64,000 bases of DNA, taken from contig NZ_CP040330.1 of assembly GCF_005576615.1 (NCBI RefSeq), forward strand, positions 2,728,001-2,792,000, in the 5' to 3' direction. Below the pieces are notes generated by a model. That model was not told where the DNA came from and searched no databases. It saw only the letters and a list, made by a program, of their open reading frames with translations. The number at the start of each line of letters is the position of its first letter. Positions within the stretch are counted from its first letter, which is position 1. Shown one piece after another: positions 37,588 to 45,304 of this stretch. This DNA comes from Natrinema versiforme. Lineage in GTDB: Archaea; Halobacteriota; Halobacteria; Halobacteriales; Natrialbaceae. The position numbers were made by a program, and so were the translations under genes.

Positions 37588-38490
37588 ATGGCACAAATAT
37601 CCACTGCGTCAGACATGACGGTCGCGGAACAACGCGATCTGGCGACGGCCCTCGGCGTTGAGACCCCAGGGGACGGGGCGATAACGTGGGAGCTACTCGC
37701 GGGACAGATCGAACCGCGGTCCGACTCGACGTTCGCCTCTCGAGGCGACGCGATTCGGGCCGATCTCGCCGGGCGACTCGATCGGGAGTTGCTCGAGCGG
37801 GAGCGGGCGGCTATCGCGGACGAAATCGGTCGGTTACCGGCCGTTCGCGATGCGGGCGTACCGGACGAGCAACACGGACTGTATACGGCGGTCGCGGAAC
37901 CCGGGTGGCGTCTCTACGACCACCTGCTCGAGATCGGCTTCTTCGAGAGCCTCGACGAGAACCTGCCGCGGTTCACGGCGGATCACGTCGAGACGACGAC
38001 GCGCGAACTGATCCTGACTGACCCGCTGTCGTCGGCGCTCGACGACGTCGGGTTCGACGAGTCGGAGAAGACGGCGCTGCTGGTCGACGTCGCGAACAAC
38101 GACGAGCGGCTGGCCCGGTGGGTGCCGTCGAATCAGATCCCGGCGGGCGTCGAGTTCGAGACCGACACCGTGCCGCCGCTCCACCAGCGCGCGATGGGCG
38201 GGGCGCTGCTGTGGATCCGCGGGCTCGACAGACACCTCTGGCAGAACGAGGTGCTGGTCACCGACGACCTCCTCGACGCGGCGGTCAGGTACGTCAAGGC
38301 GATGCTGGGCGGGCTGTTCGTCTCGGCGACCGCCGCCTGCGACCTCGCCGGGGACGGGCGCTTTACGGACGAACAGCTGGCGGCCGCGCTCACCGCGGGC
38401 TCGGCCGTCCAGATCGTCAGTCAGGAGGAGCTGTTGCACACCGTCTTCTACGTCACGGACGAGATGCGCGCTCCCAGCGAACTGAGGTGA
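37588..38490 (+). CDS. Unknown protein, first gene of the PQQ-dehydrogenase operon
   Basis: A 300-residue, soluble, largely helical acidic protein with no recognised domain, signal peptide or membrane helix. Features: an N-terminal part with TVAEQRDLATALGVETPGDGAITWELLA, an Arg/Glu-rich helix (LDRELLERERAAIADEIGRLP), then EPGWRLYDHLLEIGFFESLDENLPRF, and a C-terminal half with PPLHQRAMGGALLWIRGLDRHLWQNEVLV and SQEELLHTVFYVTDEM. Several His/Glu residues in helices could bind a metal or cofactor. The stop is followed two codons later by the ATG of the PQQ enzyme in the same frame, so co-translation is certain; a chaperone or cofactor role is inference. Confidence 0.8.
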   Translation: MAQISTASDMTVAEQRDLATALGVETPGDGAITWELLAGQIEPRSDSTFASRGDAIRADLAGRLDRELLERERAAIADEIGRLPAVRDAGVPDEQHGLYTAVAEPGWRLYDHLLEIGFFESLDENLPRFTADHVETTTRELILTDPLSSALDDVGFDESEKTALLVDVANNDERLARWVPSNQIPAGVEFETDTVPPLHQRAMGGALLWIRGLDRHLWQNEVLVTDDLLDAAVRYVKAMLGGLFVSATAACDLAGDGRFTDEQLAAALTAGSAVQIVSQEELLHTVFYVTDEMRAPSELR

Positions 38491-38496
38491 TCACGC

Positions 38497-40206
38497 ATGG
38501 CACTACGCAACGACAGGGCCGTTCAGGCCGCACGCGAGATCGAACTGCGAGAGATCGAGGACGGCTACACGCTGGTCGGGGGTCCAGACGACTCGGTCAC
38601 CGAACAGCACGATACCGACCGCATTCCGGAGGTCGACGTCGATCAGGAGATGCTGAGCGGGACCGGCGACGACCCCGAGTCGTGGCTCATGTACGGCGGA
38701 AACTACGAACAACACCGGGCCACGCCCGCCGACACGATCACGCCCGAGAACGTCTCCGACCTCGAGCTCGAGTACGAGCTGTCGGTCGGGACGGGCTCGA
38801 GCATGGAGGGGACGCCCATCGTGATCCCGGGCGACCCGCCGGTCATGTACCAGACGAACGGGCCGAATCACATGAAGGCGATCGACCCCCGCGAGGGGGA
38901 GGTCCTCTGGAGCTACACCTACGCGGTCCCGATGGGCGTCGAACTCTGCTGTGACGACAACAACCGCGGGGCCGCCGTCTACGGCGACAAGGTGTACATG
39001 ACGACGCTCGACTCGGGCGTCGTCGCGCTGAATCGGTACACCGGCGAGGAGGAGTGGTACACGAGCACGGCCGACCACGAAGAGGGGTACTCCGCGACGT
39101 GGGCACCGGTGATCCACGACGGCACGATCTACACCGGCAGCGCCGGCGGCGAGTACGGCGTGCTCGGATTCATGGCCGCGCTCGATGCGGAGAGCGGCGA
39201 GATCCAGTGGCAGACCGAGACGCTCCCGGAGGACGAGTGGGTCGGCGCGAGCCGCGAGCACGGCTGCGGGACGACCTGGATGACGCCGACGATCGACGAG
39301 GACCGCGAGGTTCTCTACACGGCGGTCGCGAACCCCGGACCGGACTTCGACGGCACGGTGCGGCCGGGACCGAACTTCCCCACCTGCGGAACCATCTCGC
39401 TGGACCTCGAGAGCGGCGAGTGGGAATGGGGGTTCCAGAGTAGCCCGCACGACGTCTGGGACTACGACGCGGTCGCGCCGCGGGTACTGATTCGCGATGT
39501 AGACGTCGACGACGGACCGTCGGAGATGGTCGTCGGTTCGGACAAGACCGGCTGGGTGTACATGATGGACGCCGAGTCCGGCCGGCTCCACGAGCGCAGC
39601 GAGGAGATCTGCCAGCACATCAATATGTGGGAGATGATTCCCCACCTCAGCTCGGACGAGCGGATCCCGTTCGTCCCGGGCGCGCCGGGGGGCAACGACT
39701 GGCAGCCGCCGTCGTACAACCCGGAAACCGGGTACGTGTACGTCGTCCATCAGAACTTCCCACAGGACCTGATGTGGCGCTACGAGGAGTACAGCGAGGG
39801 CAACCCCTACTGGGGCGGCGATCTCTCCGACCCGGCCGAGGAGTTCCCCGACGAGTGGAACGAGTCGATCACCGCGTTCGCCGCGGTCGATCCCGCGACG
39901 GGCGAGCGCGTCTGGCGCGAGTGGACCGAGAGCGAGGACAACCACTACATGTGGGGCGGGTCGCTGTCGACTGCGACCGGACTCGTGTTTAACGGCACCC
40001 AGAACGGCAACTTCGTCGCTTACGACGGCGAGAGCGGCGACCGCCTCTGGGAGTACGAGTTCGACGTGCCGATCAGCGCCTCGCCGATGAGCTGGTACGA
40101 TCCCGGCGAGGAGAAGCAGTACGTGGCCGTCCAGGTCGGCGGCAGCGGCTGGCTCCGTCAGGGACCGCGCGGCGACACGCTCGCCGTGTTCTCGATGGAC
40201 GCCTGA
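38497..40206 (+). CDS. PQQ-dependent alcohol dehydrogenase, lanthanide-type active site
   Basis: A 569-residue eight-bladed-propeller quinoprotein of the methanol/ethanol dehydrogenase family. C151-C152 (ELCCDDNNRG) match the vicinal disulfide that stacks on PQQ. E219 (GSAGGEYG), N279 (VANPGPDF) and D322 (PHDVWDYD) match the metal/catalytic ligands, and D324, two residues after the catalytic Asp, is the extra Asp that marks rare-earth-dependent XoxF-type enzymes. Trp-docking repeats (e.g. LDAESGEIQW, DPATGERVW) recur. Unlike bacterial homologues there is no signal peptide, and an in-frame TGA six bases upstream of the start rules out a longer N-terminus. The downstream gene encodes an exported cupredoxin, a plausible electron acceptor. 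Confidence 0.9.
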   Translation: MALRNDRAVQAAREIELREIEDGYTLVGGPDDSVTEQHDTDRIPEVDVDQEMLSGTGDDPESWLMYGGNYEQHRATPADTITPENVSDLELEYELSVGTGSSMEGTPIVIPGDPPVMYQTNGPNHMKAIDPREGEVLWSYTYAVPMGVELCCDDNNRGAAVYGDKVYMTTLDSGVVALNRYTGEEEWYTSTADHEEGYSATWAPVIHDGTIYTGSAGGEYGVLGFMAALDAESGEIQWQTETLPEDEWVGASREHGCGTTWMTPTIDEDREVLYTAVANPGPDFDGTVRPGPNFPTCGTISLDLESGEWEWGFQSSPHDVWDYDAVAPRVLIRDVDVDDGPSEMVVGSDKTGWVYMMDAESGRLHERSEEICQHINMWEMIPHLSSDERIPFVPGAPGGNDWQPPSYNPETGYVYVVHQNFPQDLMWRYEEYSEGNPYWGGDLSDPAEEFPDEWNESITAFAAVDPATGERVWREWTESEDNHYMWGGSLSTATGLVFNGTQNGNFVAYDGESGDRLWEYEFDVPISASPMSWYDPGEEKQYVAVQVGGSGWLRQGPRGDTLAVFSMDA

Positions 40207-40230
40207 ACACAAGACAGCATCAACACAACA

Positions 40231-41631
40231 ATGTCAAACGAAAACCAATCTCGCGACGACGTTTCCCGTCGCGGCGTGCTGAAAGGCACGGCGGCGCTCG
40301 CCGGGACGGCCGCGATGGCCGGTACCGCCGGTGCCTACCGCGACGAGATCGACTTCCGACTGCCGGCCACACAGAACGACGGCGAGGGCCGGACGCTCTC
40401 GCTGCTCGGCATCGTCGGCGGCTGGGTCGGCGTCGCACCCGCAGAGATCGACGGCGCATCGAACCCGCCGCTGCGGCTGATCGAAGGCGAAGAGAACGAG
40501 ATCGTCTGGACGAACGGCGACGGCTCGCGTCACAACTTCACCCTCGAGGACGAGAGCGGCGACGTGATCGAGGCGACCGATTTCGTCGAAGAACAGGGCG
40601 AGTCGACCTCGCTCACGATCACGCCCGAAGGGGAGATGGCGGGCTACTACTGCGTTCCGCACCCGGTCCAGATGCGCGGTCCGGTCGAACTGATCGATCC
40701 GGACGAGGTCCACGAGTTGCGGGTCCAGGTCGAAGACCAAGAGGGCGAGCCCCTCGGCGCGGAGGTGTTCGTCGGGGATCACCACTCCTTCTCCGACCCG
40801 TCTGCGCGGCCGAGTCCACCCGAAGAGCAAACGGAGGAATCGGAAGCACAAGAGACGGACCCGGATCAGGCGACGGACGCGGAGGAAGGAGCCGAAGAGA
40901 CGACGCCGGAAGCGGACCAGACCTCGGAGGACGAGGACGGAGACGGAACCGGGGACGAACAGGGCCAGGAAGACCCGCCGGCGATGGCCCGCTTCGACAT
41001 GCTCGAGGACGGCGAGTACGACCTCGAGGTCTGGACCTACGGCCACGAGCAGGTCACCGACACGGTGACGATCGACGGCAGCGATCAGGAGGTCACCGTC
41101 ACGCTGCCGGCGGTCGAACCCGGCGACCCGACCGAGACGTACTCGCTCCAGCTTCAGGAGGGGCAGTGGGTCGGCGTCGAACCCGACGACATCGCCGAGG
41201 AGGCGAACCCGACGCTCGACCTCGAGGCGGGTGAGACCTACGCGATCGAGTGGGAGAACGCCATCGGCCGCCAGCAGCCGGAGCGGGAGAACAGGACCTT
41301 CGAACCGCTGCCCGGTCACAACTTCGTGATCGCCAGCGGTGGCGACACGAACCAGTGGAACACCTACGTCCGGTCGAACTTCACTGACGAGGCAGGCGCG
41401 ACGCAAAGCGTCGAGTTCGTCGCCAACGAGGACATGGGCGTCTACCTCGACCAGTCGCAGCTCGACGCCGTCGGCGAGATCTCCGTCGAGGGAGAAAGTG
41501 AAGAGACGGGAGAAATCCAAGAAGAAGAGATTGAACGGGGCGATGACGAGACGGAGACTGGCGGCAGCGGAGCGGAGACTGGCGGCAACGAGACGGAGGC
41601 GAGCGGCAACGAAACGACCGACGCCGACTGA
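40231..41631 (+). CDS. Tat-exported protein with duplicated cupredoxin domains
   Basis: A 466-residue secreted protein. SRRGVLKGTAALAGTAAMAGTAGA is a Tat signal with cleavage expected near residue 35. Domain 1 (about 55-155) has WVGVAPAEIDGASNPPLRLIEG and copper ligands H101, C141, H144 and M148 (YYCVPHPVQM). An acidic Glu/Asp/Pro-rich linker with a 50-residue insert separates it from a carboxypeptidase-regulatory-like stretch and from domain 2 (about 315-430), which repeats WVGVEPDDIAEEANPTLDLEAG but has YLDQSQLDAV where ligands should be, so it is probably copper-free. A Gly/Asn/Glu/Thr tail (GGNETEASGNETT) may be glycosylated. It lies 24 bp after the PQQ enzyme gene. Confidence 0.85.
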   Translation: MSNENQSRDDVSRRGVLKGTAALAGTAAMAGTAGAYRDEIDFRLPATQNDGEGRTLSLLGIVGGWVGVAPAEIDGASNPPLRLIEGEENEIVWTNGDGSRHNFTLEDESGDVIEATDFVEEQGESTSLTITPEGEMAGYYCVPHPVQMRGPVELIDPDEVHELRVQVEDQEGEPLGAEVFVGDHHSFSDPSARPSPPEEQTEESEAQETDPDQATDAEEGAEETTPEADQTSEDEDGDGTGDEQGQEDPPAMARFDMLEDGEYDLEVWTYGHEQVTDTVTIDGSDQEVTVTLPAVEPGDPTETYSLQLQEGQWVGVEPDDIAEEANPTLDLEAGETYAIEWENAIGRQQPERENRTFEPLPGHNFVIASGGDTNQWNTYVRSNFTDEAGATQSVEFVANEDMGVYLDQSQLDAVGEISVEGESEETGEIQEEEIERGDDETETGGSGAETGGNETEASGNETTDAD

Positions 41632-42307: not shown

Positions 42308-43474
42308 ATGTCAATGAACGCCGTCGTCTACCAGGGACCGAACGAAGTAGCCGTCGAAGCGGTCGACGAACCGGAGATCGAACACGAGAACGACATCATC
42401 GTCGACATCACGACGACGTGCATCTGCGGTTCGGACCTTCACATGTACGAGGGCCGGACCTCGGCCGATCCGGGAATCGTCTTCGGCCACGAGAACATGG
42501 GGAACGTGATCGAGACCGGCGACGCGGTCACGTCGCTCGAGGAGGGCGACCGCGTCGTGATGCCGTTCAACGTGGCCTGCGGGTTCTGCCGGAACTGCGA
42601 GAACGGCTACACCGGGTTCTGTACCAACGTCAACCCCGGCTTCGCCGGCGGCGCGTACGGCTACGTCGCGATGGGGCCGTACAAGGGCGGCCAGGCCGAG
42701 AAACTCCGGGTCCCCTACGCCGACTTCAACGCGCTGAAGCTCCCGGAGGGCGACGAGTACGAGGACTCCTTCGCGCTCCTCGCGGACATCTTTCCGACGG
42801 GGTGGCACGGTACCCGACTCGCGAACCTGCAACCCGGCGAGTCGATCGCGATCTTCGGGGCCGGCCCCGTCGGCCTGATGGCCGCCTACAGCGCCAAGCT
42901 CCAGGGCGCGTCGGAGATTTACATCGTCGACCGCGTGGAGAGCCGCCTCGAGCTAGCCGAGGATCACTGCGACGCCCGCCCGATCAACTTCGAGGAGAGC
43001 GACCCGGTCGAACAGATCAAAGATTTGCACGGTGGGGGCGTCGACAACGGCGTCGACGCGGTGGGCTATCAGGCGATCGACCCCGAGACGGATCCGACTG
43101 ACGATGCCTATGATCCCGCCCGAGAAAACCCCGCGGTCGTACTGAATCAGCTCATCCAGACCGTCCGACCGACCGGCGAACTCGGTATTCCGGGACTATA
43201 CGTCCCGTCTGACCCCGGCGCGCCCGACGAGATGGCAGCCCAGGGTCGACTCGGTATCGACTTCGGCAAGGCCTTCGAGAAGGGACTGAAGTTCGGCACC
43301 GGCCAGACGAACGTCAAGGAGTACAATCGGGAGCTACGAGACATGATCATCGAGGGGCGCGCCGACCCCAGCTGGGTCGTCTCCCACCGCGTCGACCTCG
43401 ACCGTGCGCCGGAGATGTACGAGAAGTTCGACGACCGCGAGGAAGGCGTCATCAAGGTCTTGCTCGAGCCGTAG
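42308..43474 (+). CDS. Zinc-dependent alcohol/glutathione-independent formaldehyde dehydrogenase
   Basis: A 388-residue medium-chain dehydrogenase. The catalytic zinc site is in CICGSDLHMYEGRTSADPGIVFGHENMG and the structural zinc site is CGFCRNCENGYTGFC. NAD binding follows at ESIAIFGAGPVGLMAAYSA. The opening MNAVVYQGPNEVAVEAVDEPEIEHENDIIV and the long insert before FLGIPGLY-type sequence match glutathione-independent formaldehyde dehydrogenase. It could take the aldehyde released by the PQQ enzyme to the acid. The divergent promoter region with the GlcG-like gene is 193 bp. Confidence 0.88.
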   Translation: MSMNAVVYQGPNEVAVEAVDEPEIEHENDIIVDITTTCICGSDLHMYEGRTSADPGIVFGHENMGNVIETGDAVTSLEEGDRVVMPFNVACGFCRNCENGYTGFCTNVNPGFAGGAYGYVAMGPYKGGQAEKLRVPYADFNALKLPEGDEYEDSFALLADIFPTGWHGTRLANLQPGESIAIFGAGPVGLMAAYSAKLQGASEIYIVDRVESRLELAEDHCDARPINFEESDPVEQIKDLHGGGVDNGVDAVGYQAIDPETDPTDDAYDPARENPAVVLNQLIQTVRPTGELGIPGLYVPSDPGAPDEMAAQGRLGIDFGKAFEKGLKFGTGQTNVKEYNRELRDMIIEGRADPSWVVSHRVDLDRAPEMYEKFDDREEGVIKVLLEP

Positions 43475-44188: not shown

Positions 44189-45304
44189 CTACAGCGGGAA
44201 CGGATCGGCCACCGCTTCCGCCGCTTCCGGCTCGTCGCCATCGAGTACGCACGCCTCGAGTTCCTCGCGAATCCGTTCCTCGTTCATTTCTCGGCCGATG
44301 AACACCAGTTGCGTACGACGGTCGTCGTCCGGCCGCCACTCGCCGATCGGACCGGCCCTGACGGACGGCCCGGCCTGACTGACGCCGATCACCGCCTCGC
44401 GGTTCGCGACGTGACAGACGCCTTTGGCCCGGATGATCGATCCGTCCCAGTCCTCGAGCCAAGCCGCGAGTCGCTCCGGGTGGAACGGTCGGTCGGACCG
44501 GAAGACGAACGAGGAGACGCCGTGGCGCTCGGCGGCGCGTCGCTCCTCGTCGCGGGTGTGCACCTCGTGGTCGTGGCCCTCCCCGCGCAGGTGGCGTTTC
44601 CACCCCTGGGAGCGCTTTGCCGTCTCGAAGTCGAATCGACCGGTGTCGAGAATGACATCCGGATCCACCTCACAGTAGGTCGTTCGGAGCCGTTTCGCTC
44701 GCGGCTGGAGGGTCTCGACGACCGATTCGATCTCCTCGAGGACGTCGTCGGGGACCATATCGGACTTGTTGAGCAGCAAGACATCGCAGAACTCGATTCC
44801 CTCGACGAGGACCTCGCTCAGCGGTCGGTCCTCGTCGGGCTGAGCGGCCTCCGGTAGCCGTTCCCCGGCGTCGAACTCCTTCCAGAAGCCGTACGTATCG
44901 AGGACGGTCACCATCGTGTCCAGCCGAAACAGCGTCGTCGGGTCAACGTCGCTGGCGTCCGTCCCTTCGGTGAACACCTGCGCGACGGGAATCGGTTCGC
45001 TGATCCCGGAGGATTCGACCAGCAGGTAGTCGAACGCTCGGCTCTCTGCCAGTTGCGCTGCCTCCTCGAGCAGGTCGCCCTGTAACCGACAGCAGATGCA
45101 GCCGTTCGAGAGGTCCACGATTCCGTCCTCGTCGTTTTCCCGCGCGATCAGCTCCGCGTCGACGTTCACCTCGCCCATGTCGTTGACGATCACCGCCACC
45201 CGTCGGTCGCCCGGATTCGACAGCACGTGATTGATCAGCGTCGTCTTTCCCGCACCGAGATAGCCGCTGACGACGGTGACGGGAATCGTGCCATTTCGTG
45301 CCAT
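44189..45304 (-). CDS. CobW/COG0523 family GTP-binding metallochaperone
   Basis: A 371-residue GTPase. Walker A is GYLGAGKTT (14-22), the metal-binding CxCC is GCICC (69-72), and NKSD gives guanine specificity. The last about 150 residues form the CobW C-terminal domain, with a His/Glu-rich loop ([20 protein letters not shown]), a likely zinc-binding region, and [27 protein letters not shown]. Proteins of this group deliver or insert zinc or other metals. The gene's 3' end abuts the insertion-sequence relic. The metal is unknown. Confidence 0.9.

Follow-up and report, generated by a model that had tools for sequence, protein, structure and literature searches.

How might a haloarchaeon operate an alcohol dehydrogenase that resembles the rare-earth quinoproteins of bacteria? 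The question is raised by an open reading frame at 38497-40206 of a 64,000-nucleotide stretch of Natrinema versiforme DNA (hereafter the window; contig NZ_CP040330.1, positions 2,728,001 to 2,792,000), which belongs to a haloarchaeal genome of 4.67 Mb. A first-pass annotation had read this frame as an enzyme that uses PQQ plus a rare-earth ion to oxidise an alcohol. We found the frame, and the residues C151, C152, E219, N279, D322 and D324 named in that annotation, to be present as described. In addition, a partner gene upstream, a Tat-cupredoxin gene downstream and a missing signal peptide change the picture of how the dehydrogenase works. We propose, with moderate confidence, that the operon at 37588-41631 encodes a haloarchaeal quinoprotein alcohol dehydrogenase complex that is exported via Tat on the signal of another subunit, has a D-x-D metal site, relies on external PQQ and uses a type-1 copper acceptor. 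The features of the locus are as follows.

37588..38490, + strand: helical partner gene, 300 aa, of no known family; its stop lies 6 nt before the dehydrogenase start
37630..37689, + strand: N-terminal segment QRDLATALGVETPGDGAITW of the partner, corresponding by homology to DRREFLKALGVGGAVAAGG, the Tat segment in deep-branching partners, but without twin Arg and without hydrophobic core
38497..40206, + strand: PQQ-type alcohol dehydrogenase, 569 aa, without signal peptide
38947..38952, + strand: vicinal Cys pair C151-C152
39151..39153, + strand: E219, predicted metal ligand
39331..39333, + strand: N279, predicted metal ligand
39460..39468, + strand: D322-Y323-D324, the catalytic Asp and extra Asp of the lanthanide-type D-x-D motif
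39544..39546, + strand: K350; XoxF and PedH have Arg here, and quinohaemoprotein alcohol dehydrogenase (1kb0) has Lys
40231..41631, + strand: Tat-cupredoxin gene, 466 aa, directly downstream of the dehydrogenase
40231..40335, + strand: Tat-type signal MSNENQSRDDVSRRGVLKGTAALAGTAAMAGTAGA of the cupredoxin

Fold and Active Site of the Dehydrogenase

The frame 38497-40206 encodes a complete PQQ-type propeller dehydrogenase. It matched the PQQ propeller family PF01011 with 171.6 bits (Pfam cutoff, 26.7), and its score against TIGR03075, the PQQ-dependent methanol/ethanol dehydrogenases, was below the cutoff (366.4 vs. 480.05), although the match was full length. In the structure prediction that the first-pass annotation had suggested as a check, the best match of the AlphaFold model (pLDDT 81.6) was PedH (1.4e-36), with XoxF close behind, and the best solved relatives by sequence were PedH, quinohaemoprotein and quinoprotein alcohol dehydrogenases, and XoxF. 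The supposed catalytic and metal positions were borne out, in that profile alignment placed D322 and D324 on both Asp residues of WDFD in PedH (6zcv) and of WDYD in XoxF (6dam). Profile alignment likewise paired E219 with the Glu of GGEFGV, N279 with the Asn of NP.P, and C151-C152 with the CCD pair of solved enzymes; W261 and K350 align with the Trp under PQQ and the Arg/Lys over PQQ, respectively. PedH, the lanthanide-dependent alcohol dehydrogenase of Pseudomonas putida (6zcv/6zcw), thus has the propeller fold, the vicinal Cys pair, the Glu/Asn ligands and the D-x-D motif in common with the window dehydrogenase, whereas identity is about 26% and PedH has Arg where the window has K350. The XoxF methanol dehydrogenases (6dam, 4mae) share the fold and the D-x-D site, yet also differ by Arg, not Lys, at 350.

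Conservation, Distribution and Ancestry

The homologue set comprised 28 haloarchaeal loci, the in-genome paralogue, plasmid records and 20 further, mostly deep-branching loci, and conservation was counted over 54 distinct aligned haloarchaeal dehydrogenases (the duplicate locus L110 was excluded). R157, W261, D322, D324 and K350 were kept in 54 of 54, N279 in 53, E219 in 45 (its losses are confined to the deepest branches) and the Cys-Cys pair in 36. A homologue from Natrinema zhouii is 98% identical to the window's dehydrogenase. The nearest bacterial relatives found are propeller dehydrogenases on plasmids of Caballeronia, Paraburkholderia and Alloyangia (35-36% identity), which like the window's enzyme carry the CC pair, and a WDLD motif. 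Because these bacteria are not halophilic, the extra Asp is ancestral, and halophilic acidity was ruled out as the cause of D324; since D322 and D324 are present in every haloarchaeal homologue and in the nearest bacterial relatives, neither chance nor acidity explains the D-x-D motif. The annotated loci of these bacteria differ in that the partner gene is not adjacent, and Alloyangia has a cytochrome c neighbour.

The earlier remark that such enzymes are unusual in archaea agrees with their distribution: carriers were 51 of the 292 sampled members of the class, in 18 of 77 genera, and outside the class the phylum-wide sample yielded generic propellers only, at 140 bits or less. In a quick tree, which held few bacterial rows, all haloarchaeal dehydrogenases formed one clade (SH-aLRT 99), while the fork with the nearest bacterial relatives was not resolved; no grouping with XoxF was seen, the clade lying apart from the Sinorhizobium XoxF row. 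A single acquisition from bacteria is consistent with this tree. The genome to which the window belongs holds a second pair (L045:9346-11445; 43% identity); in its dehydrogenase the Cys pair is missing and a long acidic stretch is inserted, and its partner keeps a Tat-like signal. Damaged copies of the pair occur in relatives (G203:C1:1316961-1318853, G163:C12:128233-130228 and G193:C1:1281353-1282341), with in-frame stops, a split dehydrogenase match and a short remnant.

Metal Identity

The D-x-D motif is a published marker of lanthanide-dependent PQQ alcohol dehydrogenases (PMC11996626), and the window dehydrogenase carries it. However, according to the same paper, the motif also occurs in membrane glucose dehydrogenases (m-GDH), which have been characterised with Ca, Mg, Zn and Sr, and rare-earth use is hence rated as likely. 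Of the original claim, a quinoprotein alcohol dehydrogenase with a lanthanide-type D-x-D site was upheld, whereas the rare-earth ion itself went further than a motif found in Ca/Mg enzymes allows. The m-GDH precedent lends some weight to a metal-promiscuous PQQ alcohol dehydrogenase of the same fold and chemistry using Ca or Mg, in which case, in a brine rich in these ions, D-x-D would not equal rare-earth use; we regard this as possible but doubtful, as PedH and XoxF, the solved enzymes closest to the window dehydrogenase, are lanthanide enzymes, and in the profile alignment the +2 position is S or T in the Ca-type homologues 1flg and 1kb0. According to the rare-earth reading that we prefer, the dehydrogenase would bind PQQ and the metal in its lanthanide-type D-x-D site and oxidise an alcohol.

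Several nearby genes deserve mention. Na/Ca-exchanger genes, sometimes two, lie near the pair in some loci (L020:11175-12275, L034, L045, L082 and L083) and are candidates for cation supply. The minus-strand gene at 44189-45304, close to the operon, encodes a GTPase of the CobW family, a relative of the zinc metallochaperone ZigA (352 bits vs. a cutoff of 600). The gene at 42308-43474 encodes a zinc-type dehydrogenase that resembles glutathione-independent formaldehyde dehydrogenase (TIGR02819, 350.5 bits, below the cutoff of 637); it is a possible candidate for the next step, acting on an aldehyde, and a gene of this type near the operon is conserved in only five loci. Some relatives have aldehyde ferredoxin oxidoreductase or xanthine-dehydrogenase-type neighbours, which would suit onward aldehyde oxidation.

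The Upstream Helical Partner

The partner encoded at 37588-38490 gave a confident, all-helical structure model (pLDDT 86.7), which matched no PDB fold at E <= 0.001. Searches of Pfam and NCBIfam returned no match for the window's protein, and for its relatives they picked up nothing beyond the Tat segment and noise under the cutoff; a PqqC-like identity was ruled out by profile and fold searches. Relatives are annotated as "hypothetical protein" in public plasmid records, the plasmid matches being all haloarchaeal, and a search of the phylum sample found family members in Halobacteria only. Its link with the dehydrogenase is close: the partner lies upstream in 27 of 28 collected loci and also beside the in-genome paralogue, and, of 292 haloarchaeal genomes, the 51 that hold one gene are exactly those that hold the other. 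By coordinates, the dehydrogenase is next downstream in 77 of 79 partner matches (median gap, 20 nt), and for the remaining two (L097 and L100) it is adjacent in the locus DNA, so that all 79 are followed by a dehydrogenase. Dehydrogenases lacking the partner were one on a MAG contig (L028) and a second copy in L083. The partner would thus represent a new protein family and is a near-obligate companion of the dehydrogenase; it may be called previously undescribed within a literature search that is thin on subscription journals, and the same search found no publications on haloarchaeal PQQ or lanthanide alcohol dehydrogenases.

In many loci two to three NMT1/THI5-like binding proteins stand in a row near the pair (e.g., L018:1236-4071, L027:11181-13054 and L082:3063-5922), often without an adjoining permease; these could serve in transport or be enzymes with the same fold.

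Export Signals and the Probable Electron Acceptor

Neither the window dehydrogenase nor any haloarchaeal homologue has a hydrophobic N-terminal segment that could act as an export signal, and the first ~45 residues of the haloarchaeal enzymes are conserved. Deep-branching partners begin with segments like DRREFLKALGVGGAVAAGG, of which four of the five scored exceed the NCBIfam TAT cutoff and the fifth narrowly misses it. A signal-less dehydrogenase with a genetically linked Tat-signal partner was seen in 17 of 52 scored pairs. The window's partner is without the Tat signal, as is the partner across the window's clade, and in the window only the cupredoxin has a signal. Seven signal-less dehydrogenases, all with Tat-bearing partners, end in PGF-CTERM-like sorting tails, with marginal scores (19.2 vs. 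the Pfam cutoff of 18.8, one over; 18.6 vs. the NCBIfam cutoff of 24.5, none over); these calls, like those of Tat, are based on motifs and profiles. Two further dehydrogenases have an N-terminal cupredoxin domain fused in their chain. Surface-sorting tails and a fused cupredoxin belong outside the cell, and therefore an escort is needed, for which the partner is the obvious candidate. Its Tat state requires two changes on the tree, which we read as two losses.

On this basis, dehydrogenase and helical partner would come together in the cytoplasm, and Tat would export the folded complex on the signal of a subunit other than the dehydrogenase, ancestrally that of the helical partner and in the window's clade probably that of the downstream Tat-cupredoxin. 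Gene order and signals are the basis on which we infer this complex and its "hitchhiker" export. PaoABC (PMC4273604) offers a precedent for such a system with three parts, its redox subunits without signals riding on a signal-bearing subunit; the parallel with the putative haloarchaeal complex is ours, and the systems differ in that the presumed haloarchaeal escort is a helical protein without a solved-fold match and the cargo is a quinoprotein.

Read by eye, the first domain of the 40231-41631 cupredoxin shows the ligands of a type-1 copper site (H, C, H, M). A cupredoxin with an RR-type signal lies directly downstream in 14 of 14 members of the window's clade, and the second loss clade likewise has a downstream cupredoxin, for which an RR-type signal can be seen in at least four of five members. 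The cupredoxin may be the Tat escort that took over from the partner in the window's clade; because the window's partner lacks a Tat signal, the case for export there depends on this cupredoxin idea. It is also the likely electron acceptor. Bacterial ped loci have the cytochrome c-550 PedF and no helical partner, whereas the window locus has the cupredoxin, and, in a further difference from XoxF, no cytochrome c was seen in the annotated haloarchaeal loci. Electrons would be handed to a blue-copper protein in place of cytochrome c.

In a third group (Halorubrum/Natronococcus type), the partner Tat signal and the cupredoxin are both missing and a ferredoxin, a CDC48-type ATPase and NMT1-like binding proteins are nearby; this group may be cytoplasmic. 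Such ferredoxin and ATPase genes, standing in a sister group where others have cupredoxin, together with the lack of a signal on both partner and dehydrogenase in the window's clade, would also fit a complex that works in the cytoplasm, the helical protein being a folding or cofactor-insertion chaperone with no role in export, and the window's clade not exporting its dehydrogenase at all. We consider this rather unlikely, given that the Tat-cupredoxin directly downstream is kept throughout the window's clade, that relatives carry a fused cupredoxin or PGF-CTERM-like tails, and that a vicinal Cys pair suits an oxidising place.

PQQ Supply

The first-pass annotation saw no PQQ-biosynthesis gene in the window, and for PqqC this extends to the whole genome. 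The genome-wide search that it had proposed for pqqA-E gave no match for PqqC, and for PqqB and PqqE only matches far below the cutoff; PQQ synthesis elsewhere in the host genome was ruled out on these results. By profile search PqqC was not found above the cutoff in any of the 292 haloarchaeal genomes, the positive control being 428.9 bits on Sinorhizobium pSymB. With no PqqC in the genome, PQQ, if used, would need an outside source (scavenging), for which E. coli glucose dehydrogenase provides a precedent. In the exported complex, the dehydrogenase would take any PQQ that it uses from the surroundings once outside the cell. An "empty" quinoprotein, in which the propeller retains its pocket and uses no PQQ as the organism cannot make it, accords with the PqqB, PqqC and PqqE results and with a weak similarity to the acido-empty-quinoprotein group A (TIGR04528; 274.8 bits, under the cutoff of 650), but is improbable in view of the near-invariant pocket and the use of external PQQ by the E. 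coli enzyme.

Implications

Tentatively, and at less than even confidence, the family may represent the first archaeal lanthanide-dependent enzyme: a PQQ-scavenging haloarchaeal dehydrogenase with a new helical Tat escort, wired to blue-copper proteins, and with an export signal that has moved between subunits in the course of evolution. If true, this would extend rare-earth biochemistry to Archaea, would point to organisms in brine communities that depend on other members for their PQQ, and would define a new protein family as the obligate companion of a redox enzyme. The natural series with the Tat signal on one subunit or another makes archaeal hitchhiker export directly testable.
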